Source of the DNA: Fulvivirga imtechensis AK7
GTDB lineage: Bacteria; Bacteroidota; Bacteroidia; Cytophagales; Cyclobacteriaceae
Assembly (NCBI RefSeq): GCF_000331535.1
Contig: NZ_AMZN01000064.1
Span: forward strand, 1 to 64,000
Reading direction: 5' to 3'
DNA: 64,000 nt
Part shown: in pieces, positions 13,674 through 22,388 of the stretch
How positions within the stretch are numbered: position 1 is the stretch's first letter
Layout of the letters: every line of letters begins with the position of its first letter
The notes under the pieces: model-generated
The model's input: the letters and a program-made list of their open reading frames with translations, nothing else
What the model was told of the DNA's origin: nothing
Database searches by the model: none
Program-made: the position numbers and the translations under genes

Positions 13674-15389
13674 CTATGCCGAAACCAGATCCTCCTCGTC
13701 TTTGGCCAGTTCCCCTGTAATAGCCTCTGAAACATTGATGATATGATCACCTACCCTCTCCAAAAGATTATAGAGGTCTGAATATATGATACCACTCATG
13801 ATATCATAGTTACCTTTTTCGATGTTCTTCAAATGTTTCTTTCTCAGCTTATCACGCTTGGTATTAATAGCGATCTCCCTTTCTACGGCAGCATTAAGGC
13901 TTACTTCTGAGTAGTCTTTATTCAGGTTGATGATCATAACATTGAATGCTTCATCAATTAATTCAAACATTTCAAGCAGATTTTTAACCTGCTTCTCTGA
14001 AAACCAGGCGTCACTCTCATTTTTACGCTGAACAGCCAGTGACATCTGAAAGAACAAATCCCCAATTCTTTCCAGATCATTGGTAATAGCCAGCATTCCC
14101 CGCAACCTGAGAGAAGATTCATTGCTTAGATTTGAAGTGGAAACTTTGGATAAATAATCCGCAATTTCAAGTTCCACCCGGTCTGTTATCTCCTCATATT
14201 TTTTAATACGCTTCATTAGCTTAGTTCGTGCTTTCACCTTCTTTTTCACAATGAGGGCCTGCACAAACCCCGACATACGAGCTGCAAGGTCTGCGAACTT
14301 CGCTATCTCCTTTCGAGCTTCTTCAAGTGATATTTCCGGTGTAGCCATTATGGGTGTGCTAATATATTCAAGCCTGAATTCCTCATCTTCACCCATAGAT
14401 TTGACGTACCTGGTCACCACCGCAGCAATTTGGCGAACGAACCACACCAAAAGCAGCACATTTATAATGTTAAAAGTGGTATGAAAAATGGAAAGCGCTA
14501 TGGGTACAGCCTCCGGATTACTTAAAGGAGACACTTCATAATTGATGGTCATAAAGGCGTCTATTCCCTTCAGGAACAAAGGGAAAGCCAATAACATCCA
14601 GAGCACTCCGAAAACATTAAAAATAAAATGTGCTCGTGCCGCCCGCTTGGCATGGATATTACCCACAATAGCAGCAATGTTGGCTGTGATCGTAGTACCT
14701 ATATTTTCTCCCAGCACCATGGCCGCTGCCAGGTCAAATGAGATCCAGCCTTGGTTCGCCATTACAAGAGTCAATGCCATACTTGCGCTGGACGATTGGA
14801 CTACAACTGTAAGGATGCTACCTATTGCAATAAACAATAAGGTGGAAAGGAAACCCGCATCTGTGTATCTGCTTAAAAACTCAAGCACCTCGGGGTTGGA
14901 TTTCAGATCAGGTACTGACTCTTTAAGAGCTTCTAGCCCCATAAACAGCAAGGCAAACCCAATGATCACCTCTCCCCACGACTTGATCCTGTTTTTTGAA
15001 GAGAATAGCAATGGAAAACCAAATGCTATCAGCGGGAGGGCAACAGCCGCGATCTTCACTTTAAATCCTACGATCGATATAATCCACGCGGTAATGGTGG
15101 TACCTATGTTGGCTCCCATAATTACTCCCACGGATTCTATCAGCGAGAGTAGTCCGGCATTGACAAAACTCACCACCATTACAGTGGTAGCTGATGATGA
15201 TTGCACCAGTGTGGTTAATAAAAATCCGGTCAGCACTCCCATAAAGCGATTAGAGGTCATAGCACGAAGTATCTGTCGCATTTTGCCTCCAGCCACCTTT
15301 TGTATCCCTTCGCTCATTACTTTCATTCCGTAGATAAAAAATCCAAGAGAACCAATGAGCGTTAGAAAATCTATTAAGGTAAATTCCAT
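13674..15389 (-). CDS. Na/Pi cotransporter with C-terminal PhoU-like domain
   Basis: The 571-residue membrane protein has two NptA-type repeats, with QSSSATTVMVVSF near residue 63 and VVQSSSASMALTLV near 205, within about nine transmembrane helices. Residues ~345-560 are a soluble helical PhoU-like domain (LAITNDLERIGDLFFQMS and NLLERVGDHIINVS). It probably imports phosphate with sodium, or exports it, at the inner membrane, with the PhoU part sensing or gating. It faces away from the pst operon across a 308-bp intergenic region. Compare the PhoU-less paralogue at 20053. Confidence 0.92.
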   Translation of the reverse strand: MEFTLIDFLTLIGSLGFFIYGMKVMSEGIQKVAGGKMRQILRAMTSNRFMGVLTGFLLTTLVQSSSATTVMVVSFVNAGLLSLIESVGVIMGANIGTTITAWIISIVGFKVKIAAVALPLIAFGFPLLFSSKNRIKSWGEVIIGFALLFMGLEALKESVPDLKSNPEVLEFLSRYTDAGFLSTLLFIAIGSILTVVVQSSSASMALTLVMANQGWISFDLAAAMVLGENIGTTITANIAAIVGNIHAKRAARAHFIFNVFGVLWMLLAFPLFLKGIDAFMTINYEVSPLSNPEAVPIALSIFHTTFNIINVLLLVWFVRQIAAVVTRYVKSMGEDEEFRLEYISTPIMATPEISLEEARKEIAKFADLAARMSGFVQALIVKKKVKARTKLMKRIKKYEEITDRVELEIADYLSKVSTSNLSNESSLRLRGMLAITNDLERIGDLFFQMSLAVQRKNESDAWFSEKQVKNLLEMFELIDEAFNVMIINLNKDYSEVSLNAAVEREIAINTKRDKLRKKHLKNIEKGNYDIMSGIIYSDLYNLLERVGDHIINVSEAITGELAKDEEDLVSA

Positions 15390-15607
15390 TTTATTAAATT
15401 CTAAGGATTAGTTTATCGTTTAGAAATGTTTTATTTCGCCCGAATGAGGCCTCTTTTTAGAAGTAATGATATATATCATATTCAGGGTCAATATTTAACA
15501 ATTTGGTATTGACGGTGTTAAACTGGTTAAGGCAGTAGTGTTCCGGCAATAAGCATCGACAAAATAATTGAATTTATTAACAGAAAGGAAATTTTTACAA
15601 CGCGAAA

Positions 15608-15635
15608 TTAACATAAACTTAACATTAACTTAATA
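15608..15635 (+). promoter_or_regulatory. putative Pho box upstream of pstS
   Basis: TTAACA (15608), TTAACA (15619) and TTAATA (15630) are direct repeats with exact 11-bp period (6-bp box, 5-bp spacer). This is the layout of PhoB/PhoP-type response-regulator sites, most like the TTAACA repeats of Bacillus PhoP. The last box ends 31 nt before the -7 element at 15667. The rest of the 308-bp spacer holds no recognised feature. Confidence 0.7.
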
Positions 15636-15666
15636 TAAATTGTCAATGACCAACGTGCGTTCAGGG

Positions 15667-15674
15667 TAATTTTG
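15667..15674 (+). promoter_or_regulatory. pstS -7 element
   Basis: TAATTTTG is a perfect TAnnTTTG -7 element, 23 nt before the pstS start codon. No TTTG -33 element lies at the usual distance, as expected for an activator-dependent promoter fed by the upstream boxes. Confidence 0.65.
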
Positions 15675-15697
15675 CATCCGATTTAAAACTAAATAGC

Positions 15698-16657
15698 ATG
15701 ACATTAAAGGCAAATTTGACACTAGCTCTTTTAGCAACAAGCATCATTATCGCTTCTTGCGGATCAAAAGATTCAACTTCTGAAAGAGATACTACTAAAA
15801 TTAAGGGCGAAGTTAAAATTGACGGGTCCAGCACAGTTTATCCGATCACCGAAGCAATAGCTGAGGAATTCAGATCAGAACAACCAAATGTAAGAGTTAC
15901 TGTTGGGGTATCAGGTACAGGAGGCGGATTTAAGAAATTCAGCCGGGGAGAAACGGATATTAATGATGCTTCCAGGCCTATAAAGGACAAAGAAGCAGAG
16001 GCCTGCCGGCAAAATAATATTAATTATGTTGAGCTTACCGTTGCTTATGATGGCCTGGCCATTGTTATTAATCCTAAAAATGATTGGGTAGATCACTTCA
16101 CTGTAGAAGAATTGAAAAAAATATGGGAACCTGCAGCCCAGGAAACCATTACCAAATGGAGCCAGATACGCCCTGAATGGCCTGATGAAGAATTCAGCCT
16201 GTATGGTCCTGGTGTGGCTTCCGGTACCTATGATTATTTTACTGAAGCTGTTGTAGGCGAAAGTGGATCCAGCCGGGGTGACTATACAGCCAGCGAAGAT
16301 GATAATGTATTGGTACAAGGAATAATTGGAGACAAAAATGCTATCGGCTTTTTTGGACTGGCATATTACGAAGAGAACCAGAATAGCCTGAAACTTATAC
16401 CGGTAAAAAATGAAGGAGAGCCTGTGCTTCCAACCCTGGAAACAGTAAAGAGCGGAGAATACTCTCCGTTATCCAGGCCTATATTTATTTATGTAAGCGA
16501 TGTAGCTCTTAAAAGACCGGCGGTTGAAGCTTTTGTAAACTTCTACCTTGCTAATGCCGCAGAACTGGTTCAGGATGTTGGCTATATTCCACTGCCAAAG
16601 GAAGAGTATCAAAAAGAGATCTCTGAGTTTGAAAGCTTTACAAACAGAGGAAAATAA
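15698..16657 (+). CDS. pstS: phosphate ABC transporter substrate-binding lipoprotein
   Basis: PstS captures phosphate in the periplasm and delivers it to PstCA. The 319-residue protein has a lipobox (IIASC at about residue 22) and the phosphate-loop motif [12 protein letters not shown], followed by [12 protein letters not shown] and a typical two-lobed binding fold. It is first in the order pstS-pstC-pstA-pstB-phoU. A hairpin between pstS and pstC may set PstS levels above those of the membrane components. The upstream boxes suggest induction on phosphate limitation. Confidence 0.96.
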
Positions 16658-16671
16658 TAATTATCAGCTTT

Positions 16672-16704
16672 GTGCCAGGCTCTCGGGGTCCGGCACTTTA
16701 TTTA
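16672..16704 (+). terminator. intercistronic hairpin between pstS and pstC
   Basis: GTGCCAGG and CCGGCAC form an imperfect stem (outer GTGCC 16672-16676 with GGCAC 16692-16696), followed by tttattt. It could act as a partial terminator or RNA-stabilising structure that raises pstS over pstCAB, as in other pst operons. Confidence 0.5.
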
Positions 16705-16711
16705 AGTTATT

Positions 16712-17590
16712 TTGAAAAGAACCGGAGAAAAAATTATTGAGGTCGCTTTATCAACAAGTGGCCTCATTACTATTCTTACCTCTGTTGGAATTATATGGGT
16801 TCTGGTGTCGGAATCTTTCAGTTTTTTCCAGGTAGTTTCCGTCTGGGATTTTCTGACAGACACCCAATGGACTCCTTTATTTACACAGAAGCATTATGGT
16901 ATTCTACCACTGCTCAGTGGCACCTTCCTGGTTACTGCTATTGCTATTTTAACAGCCCTGCCTATTGGTATTTCAATAGCTGTATACCTAAGTGAATATG
17001 CTCCGAAATCCTTCAGAAAAAGTATTAAACCGGCACTCGAAATTTTAGCGGCAGTACCCACGGTGGTGTACGGTTTTTTCGCATTGACAGTGGTTACACC
17101 ATTTTTACAGAGTTTTATCCCTGACCTGGGAAGCTTCAATGCGCTTTCTGCAGGTATTGTTATGGGCATTATGATCATACCCATGATATCCTCTTTGAGT
17201 GAAGATGCGCTTTATGCACTGCCCAAGTCGCTGAGGGAAGCTTCATACGGAATGGGGGCAACAAGATTTCAAACCGCTTTTAAAGTAGCTGTCCCTGCCG
17301 CATCATCAGGTATTATTGTGTCGATAATACTGGCTATCGCCAGAGCAATAGGCGAAACAATGATCGTAGCCATCGCAGCAGGCCAGCAACCCAACCTAAC
17401 CGCTGACCCTCGCGAGGCTGTAATGACCATAACTGCCTATATCGTACAGGTAAGTCTTGGTGATGTACAGCATGGCTCTATCGAGTATAAAACAATTTTT
17501 GCCGCAGGTATAACATTGTTTGTTCTCACTTTCGTGCTCAATAACATCAGTTTTTGGATAAAGAAAAAATACCAGGAAAAGTATGAATAA
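16712..17590 (+). CDS. pstC: phosphate ABC transporter permease PstC
   Basis: The 292-residue inner-membrane permease has about six transmembrane helices and the EAA loop SLREASYGMGATRFQTAFKV that contacts PstB. The reading frame starts at TTG (16712); no ATG is available before the first helix, so TTG is likely the true start. The 3' end overlaps pstA by 8 nt, suggesting translational coupling. Confidence 0.95.
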   Translation: MKRTGEKIIEVALSTSGLITILTSVGIIWVLVSESFSFFQVVSVWDFLTDTQWTPLFTQKHYGILPLLSGTFLVTAIAILTALPIGISIAVYLSEYAPKSFRKSIKPALEILAAVPTVVYGFFALTVVTPFLQSFIPDLGSFNALSAGIVMGIMIIPMISSLSEDALYALPKSLREASYGMGATRFQTAFKVAVPAASSGIIVSIILAIARAIGETMIVAIAAGQQPNLTADPREAVMTITAYIVQVSLGDVQHGSIEYKTIFAAGITLFVLTFVLNNISFWIKKKYQEKYE

Positions 17591-18440
17591 CACGTTAAAA
17601 AACAGGCTCATCGATTCCGGATTTAAGTACTTCGCCATCTTCTGTACTTTCTTTGGCCTAATAGTACTTGCCATATTCATTATCCAGATATTGATAGAGG
17701 GTGTGGGCAGAATAGACTGGGGTTTTCTGACCAGTCTTCCCTCCCGAAGAGCATCAAAGGCGGGTATCCTTACAGCCTGGACAGGTACAGCCTGGATACT
17801 TGGCCTTACGGCCCTGATCTCTATACCACTGGGTGTTGCTGCCGGAATATATTTGGAAGAATATGGAAAAAAGAACCGCCTGGCATCAATTATAGAAGTC
17901 AATATTGCCAACCTTGCCGGGGTGCCATCCATTATTTATGGCCTGCTTGGGCTGGAGATATTTGTTAGAACCTTAAATTTTGGTGGCAGTCTGTTAGCAG
18001 GAGCATTTACACTGGCGCTTTTGATCCTGCCTATTATTATTGTGGCTACGCGAGAAGCATTGAAAGCAGTACCAAAATCCTTGCGAGAGGCATCTTTTGG
18101 TATGGGAGCCACCAAATGGCAAACTATATGGTATCAAACACTTCCGGCTGCATCAGGGGGTATTCTTACCGGCATTATCCTGGCCCTGTCAAGAGCGGTA
18201 GGGGAAACTGCTCCACTCATTGTGATAGGCGCCCTGGCATATGTGCCCTTTGTAGCAAGAACACCGATGGATGAGTTCACAGTATTACCCATGCAGATCT
18301 TTAACTGGGTATCACGGCCCCAGCATGGTTTTATAGTGAATGCCGCAGCAGCGATCATTATTTTGTTATTAATTACTTTTGTGATGAATGGAATAGCCAT
18401 TTACCTACGCAACAAATGGCAGAAAAAAGTAAACTGGTAA
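17583..18440 (+). CDS. pstA: phosphate ABC transporter permease PstA
   Basis: The 285-residue permease pairs with PstC to form the phosphate channel. It has six predicted helices and the EAA loop SLREASFGMGATKWQTIWYQ, followed by LSRAVGETAPLIVIG, typical of PstA. ATG 17583 lies inside the end of pstC. pstB follows after 18 nt. Confidence 0.95.
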   Translation: MNNTLKNRLIDSGFKYFAIFCTFFGLIVLAIFIIQILIEGVGRIDWGFLTSLPSRRASKAGILTAWTGTAWILGLTALISIPLGVAAGIYLEEYGKKNRLASIIEVNIANLAGVPSIIYGLLGLEIFVRTLNFGGSLLAGAFTLALLILPIIIVATREALKAVPKSLREASFGMGATKWQTIWYQTLPAASGGILTGIILALSRAVGETAPLIVIGALAYVPFVARTPMDEFTVLPMQIFNWVSRPQHGFIVNAAAAIIILLLITFVMNGIAIYLRNKWQKKVNW

Positions 18441-18458
18441 AGTTTACAGCATACAGAT

Positions 18459-19211
18459 ATGAAACACATTGAAACAAAAAATGTAAATGCATATTACGGT
18501 GAAAATCATGTGTTAAAGGATATCTCTTTAACTATGAAAGCCAATACCGTTACTGCTTTTATTGGCCCTTCGGGTTGTGGTAAATCTACCTTCTTACGTT
18601 GCCTCAACCGTATGAATGACTACATAGAAGGTTTCCGGAAAGAAGGAGACATCTTTATAGAAGGAGAGGATATATATGACAAAAAGGTAAGGGTTGAAGA
18701 GTTGCGGCAAAAGGTAGGAATGGTATTTCAAAAGCCCAACCCATTCCCTAAAACTATTTTTGAAAACGTGGCATACGGCTTAAAAATACAAGGCGTCAAA
18801 AATAAAAAGATCCTGGAAGAGGCTGTAGAAAAGTCTTTGATGAAATCAGCGCTATGGGCGGAGGTGAAAGATCAGTTGCATAAATCTGCCTTATCTCTCT
18901 CAGGTGGTCAGCAGCAGAGATTATGCATAGCCAGAACCCTGGCAGTGGAACCCACAACTATTTTGATGGATGAACCTGCCTCTGCACTTGATCCGATATC
19001 AACCGCCAAAATTGAAGAGCTGATCTCTGAACTAAAAGAGAACTATACTATAGTGATAGTTACTCATAATATGCAACAGGCGGCAAGGGTCAGCGATAAA
19101 ACAGCATTTTTCTATATGGGTGAACTGATAGAATATGGTAAAACCAAAGATCTGTTCACTCACCCTAAACATGAGCGTACAGAAAATTATATTACCGGAA
19201 GGTTTGGATAA
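18459..19211 (+). CDS. pstB: phosphate ABC transporter ATPase PstB
   Basis: The 250-residue ATPase energises phosphate uptake at the cytoplasmic face of PstCA. Walker A is GPSGCGKST, the signature is LSGGQQQR and Walker B is [14 protein letters not shown]; the Q-loop is [11 protein letters not shown]. Length and motifs match PstB closely. phoU begins 33 nt downstream, with no terminator between. Confidence 0.97.
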
Positions 19212-19244
19212 ACAAGCCGGAACAGCTAATATAAACCCATAAAT

Positions 19245-19925
19245 ATGGCACACTTAGAACCAGAACTAGACCTACTAAAAAATAGCCTTCTTGAAATGTT
19301 AGAGTTGGTGACCTCTCAATTGGAAAAATGTAAGGCCGCTACCTTTGATGCAGATGCTGATTTGGCAAAAGAAGTAATTTCCCTTGAAAAACGTGTGAAT
19401 TCACTGGAGCTTTCCATAGACAAGCGATGTGAAAATATACTTGCACTATACAACCCCGTAGCTACTGACCTTCGTTTTGTACTGGCGGCTTTTAAAATTA
19501 GCAATGACCTCGAACGGATCGGTGACAATGCAGAAGGCATTGCCAACTTCCTGTTTGATATCATGGAAAAGGCTGAAGACGATATGATTGAGAAATTTAA
19601 GCTCAACATGATGTTCGATGTGGCTATCTCTATGCTGAAGGACATGGAAGAAGCCATGGAAAATGAAGACACTAAGCTGGCCAGAAAAATCTTCAAAAAG
19701 GATGACTTCCTGAACGAGAACAATAAAAATGCTTCTAAAATTGCTGCTGAACTGATCCAGAAATATCCTAACAAGATCAAACTTATCTTAAAGTTGTTTT
19801 CAATTGTCCGAAAACTTGAGCGCGTTGGAGATTTGACAAAGAACCTGGGTGAAGAGCTTATCTTCCATATTGAAGCCAAGGTATTGAAACATAAAAAGGA
19901 TCAGAAGAAAAAGAAGAAGAAGTAG
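19245..19925 (+). CDS. phoU: phosphate signalling protein PhoU
   Basis: PhoU links Pst transport to the sensor kinase and represses the Pho response when phosphate is plentiful. The 226-residue protein has two PhoU repeats with the metal-binding signatures SNDLERIGDNAEGIANF and VRKLERVGDLTKNLGEEL, and a very lysine-rich C-terminal tail. It is last in the pst operon. Its stop is 10 nt before the next set of Pho-like boxes, so the following genes have their own promoter. No PhoR or PhoB gene is in the window. Confidence 0.95.
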   Translation: MAHLEPELDLLKNSLLEMLELVTSQLEKCKAATFDADADLAKEVISLEKRVNSLELSIDKRCENILALYNPVATDLRFVLAAFKISNDLERIGDNAEGIANFLFDIMEKAEDDMIEKFKLNMMFDVAISMLKDMEEAMENEDTKLARKIFKKDDFLNENNKNASKIAAELIQKYPNKIKLILKLFSIVRKLERVGDLTKNLGEELIFHIEAKVLKHKKDQKKKKKK

Positions 19926-19935
19926 TAGTCCGGTA

Positions 19936-19982
19936 TTAACCCAATGTTAATGCTATGTTAACAATTTAACTATTCCTTAACA
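19936..19982 (+). promoter_or_regulatory. putative Pho box array upstream of second Na/Pi transporter
   Basis: TTAACC (19936), TTAATG (19947) and TTAACA (19958) are spaced by 11 bp; TTAACT (19966) and TTAACA (19977) form a second pair also 11 bp apart, shifted by 8. The last box ends exactly 31 nt before the -7 element at 20014, the same distance as at pstS. Confidence 0.65.
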
Positions 19983-20013
19983 TAAGATGAAGTGTTTTCA
20001 CAATTCTAGATTA

Positions 20014-20021
20014 TAGCTTTG
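20014..20021 (+). promoter_or_regulatory. -7 element of Na/Pi transporter-porin unit
   Basis: TAGCTTTG is a perfect TAnnTTTG element. Transcription would start near 20025, which makes an in-frame TTG at 20026 an unlikely start codon and favours ATG 20053. No -33 TTTG is seen. Confidence 0.6.
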
Positions 20022-20052
20022 CAGCTTGTTTAGAAAGGCTATTTTTAGCTTG

Positions 20053-21180
20053 ATGAATTTCATCCCTGAAATAATGCTCGTTAATCGGTCAACAGTTATC
20101 CGGATAGGCTCAGTGGCACTATCCATTGTGATGTTTTTGTTCGCTCTGGATCTGATGAGCGATTCATTTAAGCATCTGAGCAGGAATACCGTTGAATCTA
20201 TCATTCTGGCGGCATCGAACCCTTTCATTGGCCTTTTTATCGGACTACTGATCACTGCTCTTATTCAAAGTAGTTCCACCTCCACGACCATGATTATCAC
20301 TGCCGTTGCCTCCGGATCGATAAGTTTCGTAGATGCTACACCAATGATCATGGGCGCCAATATAGGGACTACTATTACCAGCACAATTGTTTCATTGGGC
20401 TATATTGCCAACAGAGAAGAATTTAGAAAGGCCTTGTCAGCAGGTGTCGTCCACGACTTCTTCAATATTTTGGTGGTGCTTATTCTTTTTCCATTAGAGT
20501 TGAACTATGGCTTACTTTCATCCGTATCGCAGAATATTTCGGTGCTGATCACTGATGATGGAGTTCAGAACGGTGTAGGAACATTATCGATCAAGTTTTT
20601 AGATATTTCTCCATTAACCGGCTTGTATACCGGATTAGTAAGTAATCCCATCATCAATCTTATTTTCTCATTTATAATACTTTTTGCCGCTATAAAAATT
20701 ATTGCCAGCATCATCTCCAATATGCTCATTGGAGATTCCCAGGAAAAACTCCAGGAATATATTTTCAACAATACGGGTAAATCATTTTTATGGGGAACAC
20801 TGGTAACCTCTTGCGTACAATCCAGTTCGGTCATCACTTCGGTAGTGTTACCCTTTGTAGCAGCAGATAAGATCAGCTTAAGAAAAGTAACCCCATTTAT
20901 AATAGGAGCCAATGTAGGCACCACAATTACCGCCTTCATTGCAGTGCTCTTTAAATCATATACTGCCGTGAATATTGCATTAGTACACCTGATATTCAAC
21001 CTAATAGGGGTATTAATATTCCTGCCCTTTCCTGGGCTGCGAAGCATCCTGATAATTATGGCAGACCGGTTTGCTCTCCTGGTGAGCAAATACAGGTTTC
21101 TGGTTGTAGTTTACATACTGCTACTCTTTTTCCTGGTCCCATTTTTACTGATATACTTCACTAAAGGATTTAATCCATAG
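20053..21180 (+). CDS. Na/Pi cotransporter, PhoU-less paralogue
   Basis: The 375-residue membrane protein has two NptA-type repeats (QSSSTSTTMIITAVASG and CVQSSSVITSVVLPF) in about nine helices, but ends after the membrane part and lacks the soluble PhoU-like domain of the paralogue at 13674. It probably moves phosphate with sodium across the inner membrane. The start was chosen from the -7 element at 20014. A phosphate-selective porin follows 56 nt later, so the two may give paired inner- and outer-membrane phosphate entry. Confidence 0.9.
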   Translation: MNFIPEIMLVNRSTVIRIGSVALSIVMFLFALDLMSDSFKHLSRNTVESIILAASNPFIGLFIGLLITALIQSSSTSTTMIITAVASGSISFVDATPMIMGANIGTTITSTIVSLGYIANREEFRKALSAGVVHDFFNILVVLILFPLELNYGLLSSVSQNISVLITDDGVQNGVGTLSIKFLDISPLTGLYTGLVSNPIINLIFSFIILFAAIKIIASIISNMLIGDSQEKLQEYIFNNTGKSFLWGTLVTSCVQSSSVITSVVLPFVAADKISLRKVTPFIIGANVGTTITAFIAVLFKSYTAVNIALVHLIFNLIGVLIFLPFPGLRSILIIMADRFALLVSKYRFLVVVYILLLFFLVPFLLIYFTKGFNP

Positions 21181-21236: not shown

Positions 21237-22388
21237 ATGAACAAGTTAAAATATGTTCTCATTGCATTTATTTTATGTCCTTTGAGCATTATGGCCCAGG
21301 ACAAAACTTCCAGTACTTTCGGAAAAGGTATTAGAGTGCTGGCCCAGGATTCATCATTCTATTTGAAATTTGGCGCTCGCTTTCAGACGCTATATGCCGG
21401 GCGATTAAATCTCGAAACCGATGAATGGTCGGATAAAATGATGATCCGCAGATCTCGTCTGAAGTTTGACGGGTGGGCTTATGACCCAAGGGTGGAGTAT
21501 AAACTGGAGCTGGCAGTAAGTAACAATGACAATGGTAATATTAGCCCGGAGTCGGGTATGGCTGCTAACATAGTGCTTGATGCCGTGGTTAAGTATAATT
21601 TTGCCCCGGGCTGGGAGGTATGGTTTGGTCAAACAAAGCTTCCTGGTAATAGAGAACGGGTAATTTCATCTCAAAACCTTCAATTTGTTGACCGCAGTGC
21701 AGTAAATGGTCAATACAACATTGACCGTGGAGTTGGCATGCAGTTGCATCACATGCATAAAATAGGCAATGCTGTTCTAATGGAAATCGGTTCAATATCT
21801 ATGGGTGAAGGCAGAAACCTTACCATATCGAATGTAGGAGGTTACGAGTATACAGGGCGAATAGAGATCCTGCCATTTGGAGATTTCGCAGGAAAGGGCG
21901 ATTACTTTGGGTCTGACCTAAAAAGAGAAAAAACTCCAAAGCTGTCAATAGGTGTTACCTATGATCAAAATAATAATGCACCCCGTGAGGAAGGATTCAC
22001 TGGAGAATTCCTGGATCAACATAAGGACCTGAAGACCATATTTATTGATGGCATGTTTAAATACAAAGGATTTTCTACCATGTTTGAATACGCTGATAAA
22101 TGGACGGATGGTTCTCCGGTAGTTGCTGATGGAGTATTTTACACAGGCAAGGGTTTAAATGTGCAGTCGGGGTATCTTTTTAAGAATAACTTTGAAATAG
22201 CTGCCAGGTACACTTCAATTACCCCGGAAGAGATCACCGGTAATGAAGAATTTACTGAACTGACAATAGGTGTTTCTAAGTATATTGTGGATCATAGCCT
22301 AAAAATACAGAGTGACTTAACCCATACAGACAATCAGTTTTCCGATGATAAGTTGAGTTTTCGATTCCAGGTGGAATTGGCATTTTAA
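21237..22388 (+). CDS. phosphate-selective porin (OprO/OprP-like)
   Basis: The 383-residue outer-membrane protein has a signal peptide (NKLKYVLIAFILCPLSIMA) and alternating beta strands ending in FRFQVELAF, as expected for a barrel. Features such as YLKFGARFQTLY, MMIRRSRLKFDGW and WFGQTKLPGNRERVISSQNL match the porin O/P family. Its place next to Na/Pi transport and the Pho-like boxes supports anion or phosphate specificity. It is followed by a 692-bp spacer filled by a MITE-like element. Confidence 0.9.
   Translation: MNKLKYVLIAFILCPLSIMAQDKTSSTFGKGIRVLAQDSSFYLKFGARFQTLYAGRLNLETDEWSDKMMIRRSRLKFDGWAYDPRVEYKLELAVSNNDNGNISPESGMAANIVLDAVVKYNFAPGWEVWFGQTKLPGNRERVISSQNLQFVDRSAVNGQYNIDRGVGMQLHHMHKIGNAVLMEIGSISMGEGRNLTISNVGGYEYTGRIEILPFGDFAGKGDYFGSDLKREKTPKLSIGVTYDQNNNAPREEGFTGEFLDQHKDLKTIFIDGMFKYKGFSTMFEYADKWTDGSPVVADGVFYTGKGLNVQSGYLFKNNFEIAARYTSITPEEITGNEEFTELTIGVSKYIVDHSLKIQSDLTHTDNQFSDDKLSFRFQVELAF

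Follow-up and report, generated by a model that had tools for sequence, protein, structure and literature searches.

How are the phosphate-uptake genes of a bacterium switched on when their promoters lack one of the elements usual for sigma-A promoters of its phylum? This question is raised by a 64,000-nt stretch of Fulvivirga imtechensis AK7 DNA (contig NZ_AMZN01000064.1, positions 1 to 64,000; hereafter the window), which carries a pst operon and two genes encoding Na/Pi transporters. Bacteroidota sigma-A promoters have a TTTG at -33, about 19-21 nt before the -7 element. A -7 element of the form TAnnTTTG is present upstream of pstS and of the second Na/Pi gene (15667-15674 and 20014-20021; script check, with predicted starts), no TTTG is seen by eye at the expected place in either promoter, and TTAACA-like hexamers are repeated further upstream. 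From the sequence, we consider it likely that these hexamers are PHO boxes and that a PhoB-type regulator, bound to them in tandem, would replace the missing -33 element.

TTAAYA direct repeats at the two promoters

Upstream of pstS, the plus-strand array reads TTAACA at 15608, TTAACA at 15619 and TTAATA at 15630 (15608-15635) with an 11-bp period, as read directly and checked by script. A 31-nt spacer on the same strand (15636-15666), without a -33 TTTG, leads from its last box to the -7 element TAATTTTG (15667-15674) and a predicted start near 15679. At the second Na/Pi promoter, also on the plus strand, the proximal boxes TTAACT at 19966 and TTAACA at 19977 (19966-19982), which are kept in relatives, precede a spacer again of 31 nt and again without TTTG (19983-20013), the -7 element TAGCTTTG (20014-20021) and a predicted start near 20026. 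Both the pstS array and this proximal pair are direct repeats with an 11-bp step. The original prediction, made from the letters of the window, had already described these elements, and direct reading together with a script found every box and -7 coordinate correct to the base; the script likewise returned a distance of 31 nt from the last box to the -7 element at each promoter, and the absence of a -33 TTTG was borne out by eye.

The prediction had further listed five boxes at the Na/Pi promoter. Their positions stand; they do not form a single array, and only the two proximal boxes are conserved. Indeed, the first three boxes (TTAACC at 19936, TTAATG at 19947 and TTAACA at 19958; 19934-19963, strand undefined) are separated from the last two by an 8-bp step that breaks the 11-bp register, and they match TTAAYA better on the minus strand, where they read TTAACA/TTAACA/TTAATA inverted. 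By eye, this distal triple is not evident in most of 20 relatives, and the proximal pair is the part that is kept. An inverted triple standing 8 bp out of register beside a plus-strand pair is possibly an extra regulator site or a decoy. An additional TTAACA at 15577-15582 lies 31 nt, start to start, before the pstS array and off its 11-bp register.

That AT-rich boxes might arise by chance had been raised along with the prediction, and shuffling answers the point for the window: with at most one mismatch, TTAAYn6TTAAY followed by a gap of 31 and TAnnTTTG occurs twice, exactly at the two promoters, against 0.06 expected, and none of 100 dinucleotide shuffles reaches two. Three TTAAY at 11-bp steps give 3 matches (one array being counted on both strands) against 0.22 expected.

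The geometry recurs in other genomes. A pstS gene was found in 11 of 58 genomes, own included; once a weak match of 25% (L098) was left out, ten upstream regions remained, own included, of which seven have boxes at a gap of exactly 31, a count that drops to 5/10 with a shorter upstream cut (220 nt). By eye, L093 has a gap of 30; no clear match is present in L096 or L097. For the second Na/Pi gene, 20 relatives picked from a longer list were scored together with the window (n = 21), and 31 is among the best sites in 15 (10 alone, 5 tied, ties being scored as 31 in real and shuffled sequences alike); one upstream region has sites at 18 and 32, one at 32, and four have none. In mononucleotide-shuffled upstreams the same count has a mean of 0.06 and a maximum of 1 across 300 runs. 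The conserved pair of the relatives reads TTAACAAT-n-n-C-TTMAYA, and the 31-nt gap itself is without strong conservation. None of the 31 gap-31 sites fetched from relatives has a TTTG at a spacing of 19-21, two having one at 22 and one at 25.

An 11-bp register to the -7 element

Is 31 then the number that defines these sites? Across the order (291 genomes), TTAACA-n5-TTAAYA with a TAnnTTTG 16-46 nt behind it was matched 239 times, in 136 genomes, versus 33 times for the reversed pattern; among the 150 of these 239 that were listed, gaps fell at 20-22 (49), 30-32 (37), 42-43 (37) and elsewhere (27). Across the phylum (395 genomes), the TTAACA-TTAACA form was matched 141 times, in 92 genomes, versus 14 times when reversed (hand count). 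All 141 were listed, and the gaps of the 129 lying outside the order repeat the pattern, with 40 at 19-21, 34 at 31-32, 36 at 41-43 and 19 elsewhere. On this ladder, which takes up 10 of the 31 gap values, stand 125 of the 150 listed matches in the order and 112 of the 129 outside it. At a period of 11 the Rayleigh resultants amount to 0.75 and 0.78, the best periods are 10.75 and 11.0, and the phase, 9.0-9.5 modulo 11, is close to the E. coli box position plus whole turns. Because matches in related genomes are not independent, protein clusters were counted too: 40 of 53 are on the ladder versus 17 expected. Furthermore, some arrays continue to a gap of 9, near the position of E. coli PhoB.

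The general rule is an 11-bp register in which the last strong box stands about 20, 31 or 42 nt out, not 31 alone. The original prediction of a Bacteroidota Pho operator with fixed geometry thus survives in its conservation and in its downstream genes but not in 31 as a general number. The gap is nearly fixed at 31 for pstS and the second Na/Pi transporter, and PHO4-family on-register sites are at 20.

Gene-centred counts used 220 nt of upstream sequence and at most two mismatches, a scheme in which mononucleotide shuffles reach at most 2. Eleven of 30 first-Na/Pi family upstreams have a site at gap 30-32, and 6 of 25 PHO4 upstreams have one at 19-21. The prediction had named equally frequent occurrence before unrelated genes as what would count against it: none of 30 recA upstreams has any site under this scheme, and none of the 15 off-register matches (9 of them profiled) precedes a core phosphate gene. 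A looser recA scan gave two weak sites among 30 upstreams, one at gap 55 and one at gap 21, each carrying two mismatches, and none at 31. Around pstB, in 30 Bacteroidota loci scanned out of a set of 80 (L025, also labelled Flavobacteriales, left out), 13 loci have on-register sites with at most two mismatches, 4 have off-register sites only and 13 none (hand count); the on-register sites of L018, seen in another scan, were removed here by the open-frame filter. Gap 31 is found at the pstB loci of Pontibacter mucosus, Pontibacter ruber and Rufibacter psychrotolerans.

Which genes follow the sites was read, for the order scan, at 30 automatic loci and a further 78 places on and 20 places off the register (15 on-register places being omitted as repeats within the same genera), and at 30 automatic loci plus 20 hand-picked places, mostly of gap 31, of the phylum scan. 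Equal protein-plus-gap pairs were dropped, as were matches with no start of an open frame of at least 60 aa in the next 350 nt. For 40 of the 66 clusters a single member was searched against Pfam, and labels were spread by single-linkage BLAST. Behind gaps of 30-32 nt stand PstS, PstC, Na/Pi, PHO4, PhoX, Porin_O_P, a PstS-like protein and a PhoB-like regulator, as well as ExbB-led operons, TonB receptors, the MarR family of one genus and others. Gaps of 19-22 nt precede a PiT-like candidate (20/54), DUF47, PafA, PHO4, a porin and others, and gaps of 41-43 nt chiefly DUF1573 (30/42); DUF2911 is among the non-phosphate genes after on-register matches. With the PiT-like candidate, ExbB and one TPR gene added to the core phosphate genes, this extended set counts 22, 33 and 2 in the 30-32, 19-22 and 41-43 classes, and on- and off-register matches differ with p 0.001 (Fisher). 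Four members of the core set form a porin cluster without Pfam match, placed there by PstS neighbours in two of four loci. Since the sampling leans to on-register sites, these class proportions carry less weight than the gene-centred counts.

Several of these genes deserve a separate word. The candidate behind gap-20/21 sites (L147:228-1364, L114-L128 and others) is a membrane protein, conserved and about 376 aa long, whose NDSIQTIGT and PVSTT motifs resemble those of PiT transporters. As a PiT, hhalign gave it a probability of 2.4%, and it has no match in Pfam, NCBIfam or PDB; these motifs, and a gene divergent from a Na/Pi gene in two genomes, are the grounds on which it stays a candidate only. 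ExbB-led operons stand behind gaps of 31/32, with one of 21 (L155, L163, L165, L167-L169), and by eye those of L163, L165 and L168 continue with two ExbD-like frames and one TonB-like frame. In several families, DUF1573 genes (L104, L107, L110, L137, L255, L257 and others) share a TTAACA-n5-TTAACA array whose end is 42 nt from the -7 element, and in 19 of 32 sites (by eye) another TTAAC stands about 20 nt before that element. In one genus (L246, L252, L254 and others), gap-31 TTAACA pairs at a MarR-family gene are accompanied by a TTTGTATATACAA palindrome; these sites are probably unrelated to phosphate.

The putative regulator and competing explanations

In the mechanism that we favour, a phosphorylated PhoB-type regulator would bind the 11-bp direct repeats (core TTAAYA) head-to-tail when phosphate is scarce, and would induce pst and Na/Pi uptake at sigma-A promoters in which a good -7 element stands without a -33 TTTG. 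In this phylum the array stands in 11-bp register to the -7 element: its strong boxes end 31 nt away from it at pstS and the second Na/Pi gene; at PiT-type genes the distance is about 20 nt, which places them over the -33 site; and in some members they extend to 9 nt, near the E. coli PhoB position. The regulator may offset the missing -33 element by touching RNA polymerase from a place that lies, compared with E. coli, one or two helical turns higher up. Because TAnnTTTG spans -12 to -5 (PMC9723704), the last two boxes occupy about -60 to -44 at gap 31. Both the cell's own PhoB as the binder and induction by low phosphate would follow from this reading of the sequence.

The candidate regulator is encoded on another contig, about 3 kb from recA, with a histidine kinase gene directly 3', and its orthologues (E threshold 1e-70) are found in 53 of 58 genomes, own included. 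Autoregulation of phoB as a general feature was rejected, phoB upstreams having a site at 19-21 in 2/30 and off-register sites in 5, with none at 31. As exceptions, L160 has a gap of 31, and a TTAAGT-n5-TTAAGT repeat lies upstream of the own phoB. TTAAGT or TTAAGGAATTGTTAATA repeats occur in phoB upstreams (L287 at about 1370-1420; L358, L361, L366), with a gap of 36 in three relatives, and are perhaps another geometry for phoB itself.

A number of observations weigh against PHO boxes of a PhoB-type regulator. The best NCBIfam models of the own regulator are PhoB, yet at 231 bits versus a curated cut-off of 296, and the regulator of L160 is also PhoB-best at 209 bits versus 296; our confidence, still high, was lowered slightly because the own regulator falls under this cut-off. 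The genome encodes at least 10 full-length OmpR-family regulators. At gap 31, 0 of 30 phoB upstreams have a site; some site is present in only 14 of 30 first-Na/Pi upstreams; 19 of 25 PHO4 upstreams are without a 20-nt site; and five Bacteroides/Mediterranea pstB loci (L023, L024, L026, L030, L046) are without an on-register site. Core phosphate genes are a minority behind the sites (15/52 at 30-32, 12/54 at 19-22 and 2/42 at 41-43), with p 0.075 for on- versus off-register (Fisher) and 40 of the 66 clusters profiled, and DUF1573, the MarR family and many unassigned genes also follow on-register matches. In the own genome (assembly of 6.7 Mb in 225 contigs), the loose pattern is hardly enriched, with 7 matches versus 3 reversed in one scan and 13 versus 11 in a second, and a fixed gap of 31 with two mismatches gives 15 matches versus 8 in the control. 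Two further own-genome candidates were rejected, L274 being inside a 448-codon open frame and L281 330 nt away from a gene.

How would a PhoB-type regulator make contact from these boxes? Two modes were considered, a continuous array with weak proximal boxes or action from upstream of a -33 region without consensus, and neither is preferred. A bolder reading, to which we give somewhat less than even credence, would be a phylum-wide PhoB-type code with steps of 9, 20, 31 and 42, each gene keeping its step over the long term (31 for pstS and the second Na/Pi gene, 20 for PiT-type genes); step 31 would leave the -33 site free and help sigma-A from upstream, and DUF1573 would be a second regulon on the same ladder. 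We know of no PhoB that acts from upstream with the -33 site left free.

One alternative is a variant within the PhoB-type explanation, namely that the strong distal boxes are the visible part of an array continuing to 9 nt, so that the mechanism is that of E. coli and 31 a by-product of box decay. Boxes do stand at every 11-bp step down to gap 9 in other families (L015, L028), the E. coli spacing is 10, and in-register box-like letters occur inside the 31-nt gap in other orders (p 0.0005 and 0.001, 13 sites) and, more weakly, in the own order (p 0.16 and 0.01, 18 sites); the 15 second-Na/Pi sites, on the contrary, keep their gap of 31 with no conserved box inside it, and we regard this variant as a serious if rather doubtful possibility.

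A second alternative attributes the boxes to one or more other OmpR/PhoB-family regulators sharing TTAACA, with phosphate genes as part of their targets. The on-register matches before DUF1573 (30/42 in the 41-43 class), TonB receptors, DUF2911 and others would fit it, as would the OmpR-type regulators counted above and a PhoB-like protein under the PhoB cut-offs. We nevertheless judge it unlikely: pst, Na/Pi, PiT, PhoX, PafA and porins make up the standard Pho set, and a gene of this kind follows not one of the 15 off-register matches. Of 22 other-family genomes present in both scans, 17 have a close PhoB, and 10 of these have sites, as does 1 of the 5 without (hand count); this does not decide the matter. 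Chance, by which AT-rich sequence would often yield TTAA runs and TAnnTTTG, as the own-genome loose pattern near its control might suggest, is refuted by the shuffles, the recA control, the reversed pattern and the replicated ladder and has a negligible probability.

Genomic setting and known Pho systems

The two promoters lie in a cluster of phosphate genes. The first Na/Pi transporter gene (13674-15389, minus strand; PF02690) is divergent from pstS and is followed, all on the plus strand, by pstS (15698-16657, TIGR02136), pstC (16712-17590, TIGR02138), pstA (17583-18440, TIGR00974), pstB (18459-19211, TIGR00972) and phoU (19245-19925, TIGR02135), these five above cut-off, then by the second Na/Pi gene (20053-21180; PF02690, 139.7 bits, cut-off 29.1), for which the ATG start is preferred to a TTG at 20026, and by a gene for an OprP/OprO-type porin (21237-22388; PF07396, 42 bits, cut-off 20.9). 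The porin gene is probably co-transcribed with the second Na/Pi gene. No on-register site was found upstream of the first Na/Pi gene of the window (L329), and its same-genus orthologues have a gap of 30. In a collection of named genomes, the closest PstB relatives are from Pontibacter and other Bacteroidota.

The boxes of Bacillus subtilis PhoP are TTAACA-like direct repeats at about 11 bp, as here, and, unlike here, are placed nearer the -10. In E. coli, PhoB binds 11-nt direct repeats head-to-tail (PMC4415409) and PHO boxes sit 10 bp before the -10 (PMC1906773). The window promoters share with this system the 11-nt direct repeats upstream of phosphate genes and the same register to the core promoter; they differ in their core, TTAAYA versus a CTGTCAT type, and in boxes ending 31 nt before the -7 element, two turns further up. 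The E. coli-type placement, with a box about 10 bp before the -10 and over the -35, is found in neither, the gap being 31 in both. Cyanobacterial SphR Pho boxes are tandem 8-bp boxes with 3-bp linkers and the consensus CTTAACCT (PMC1906773), which amounts to an 11-bp step and a TTAAC core as here. SphR differs by its phylum, its promoter type and its three or more boxes, and no fixed distance to the core promoter appears in the available part of PMC1906773.

Within the Bacteroidota, PhoB of Bacteroides fragilis shifts a pstC promoter fragment; the genes affected by phosphate or PhoB include pstS, pstC, a phosphate permease, ExbB, a PstS-like protein and an OprO porin, and ExbB BF4134 is changed in low phosphate (all PMC3547664). 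No box sequence appears in the available part of that paper, and Bacteroides-type loci have no TTAAYA array. The overlap with B. fragilis is by gene only, because the Bacteroides-type loci lack sites, which again speaks against PHO boxes of the kind proposed. The phosphate response of Flavobacterium johnsoniae comprises a PhoBR operon with OprP and a TonB-dependent receptor, PhoX and other phosphatases (PMC8115612). Its PafA is described as constitutive (PMC8115612, PMC8812569), and PafA stands here behind a 19-22-nt site; the term "Pho box" has no occurrence in the main texts of these two papers.

We found no description of a Bacteroidota PHO box in the open-licence literature as far as accessible, subscription papers lying outside this scope. 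PHO boxes built of 11-bp units, and a TTAAC core in cyanobacteria and in Bacillus, are known; the new element would be a defined box and placement for Bacteroidota, as read from sequence. In this phylum, whose -33/-7 promoters are unusual, few operators have been defined. With a box, a register and a gene list in hand, the phosphate regulon could be read from the sequence of many members living in soil, the sea and sediments, and the displacement by whole turns from the E. coli position makes the action of an activator on the sigma-A polymerase of this phylum directly testable.

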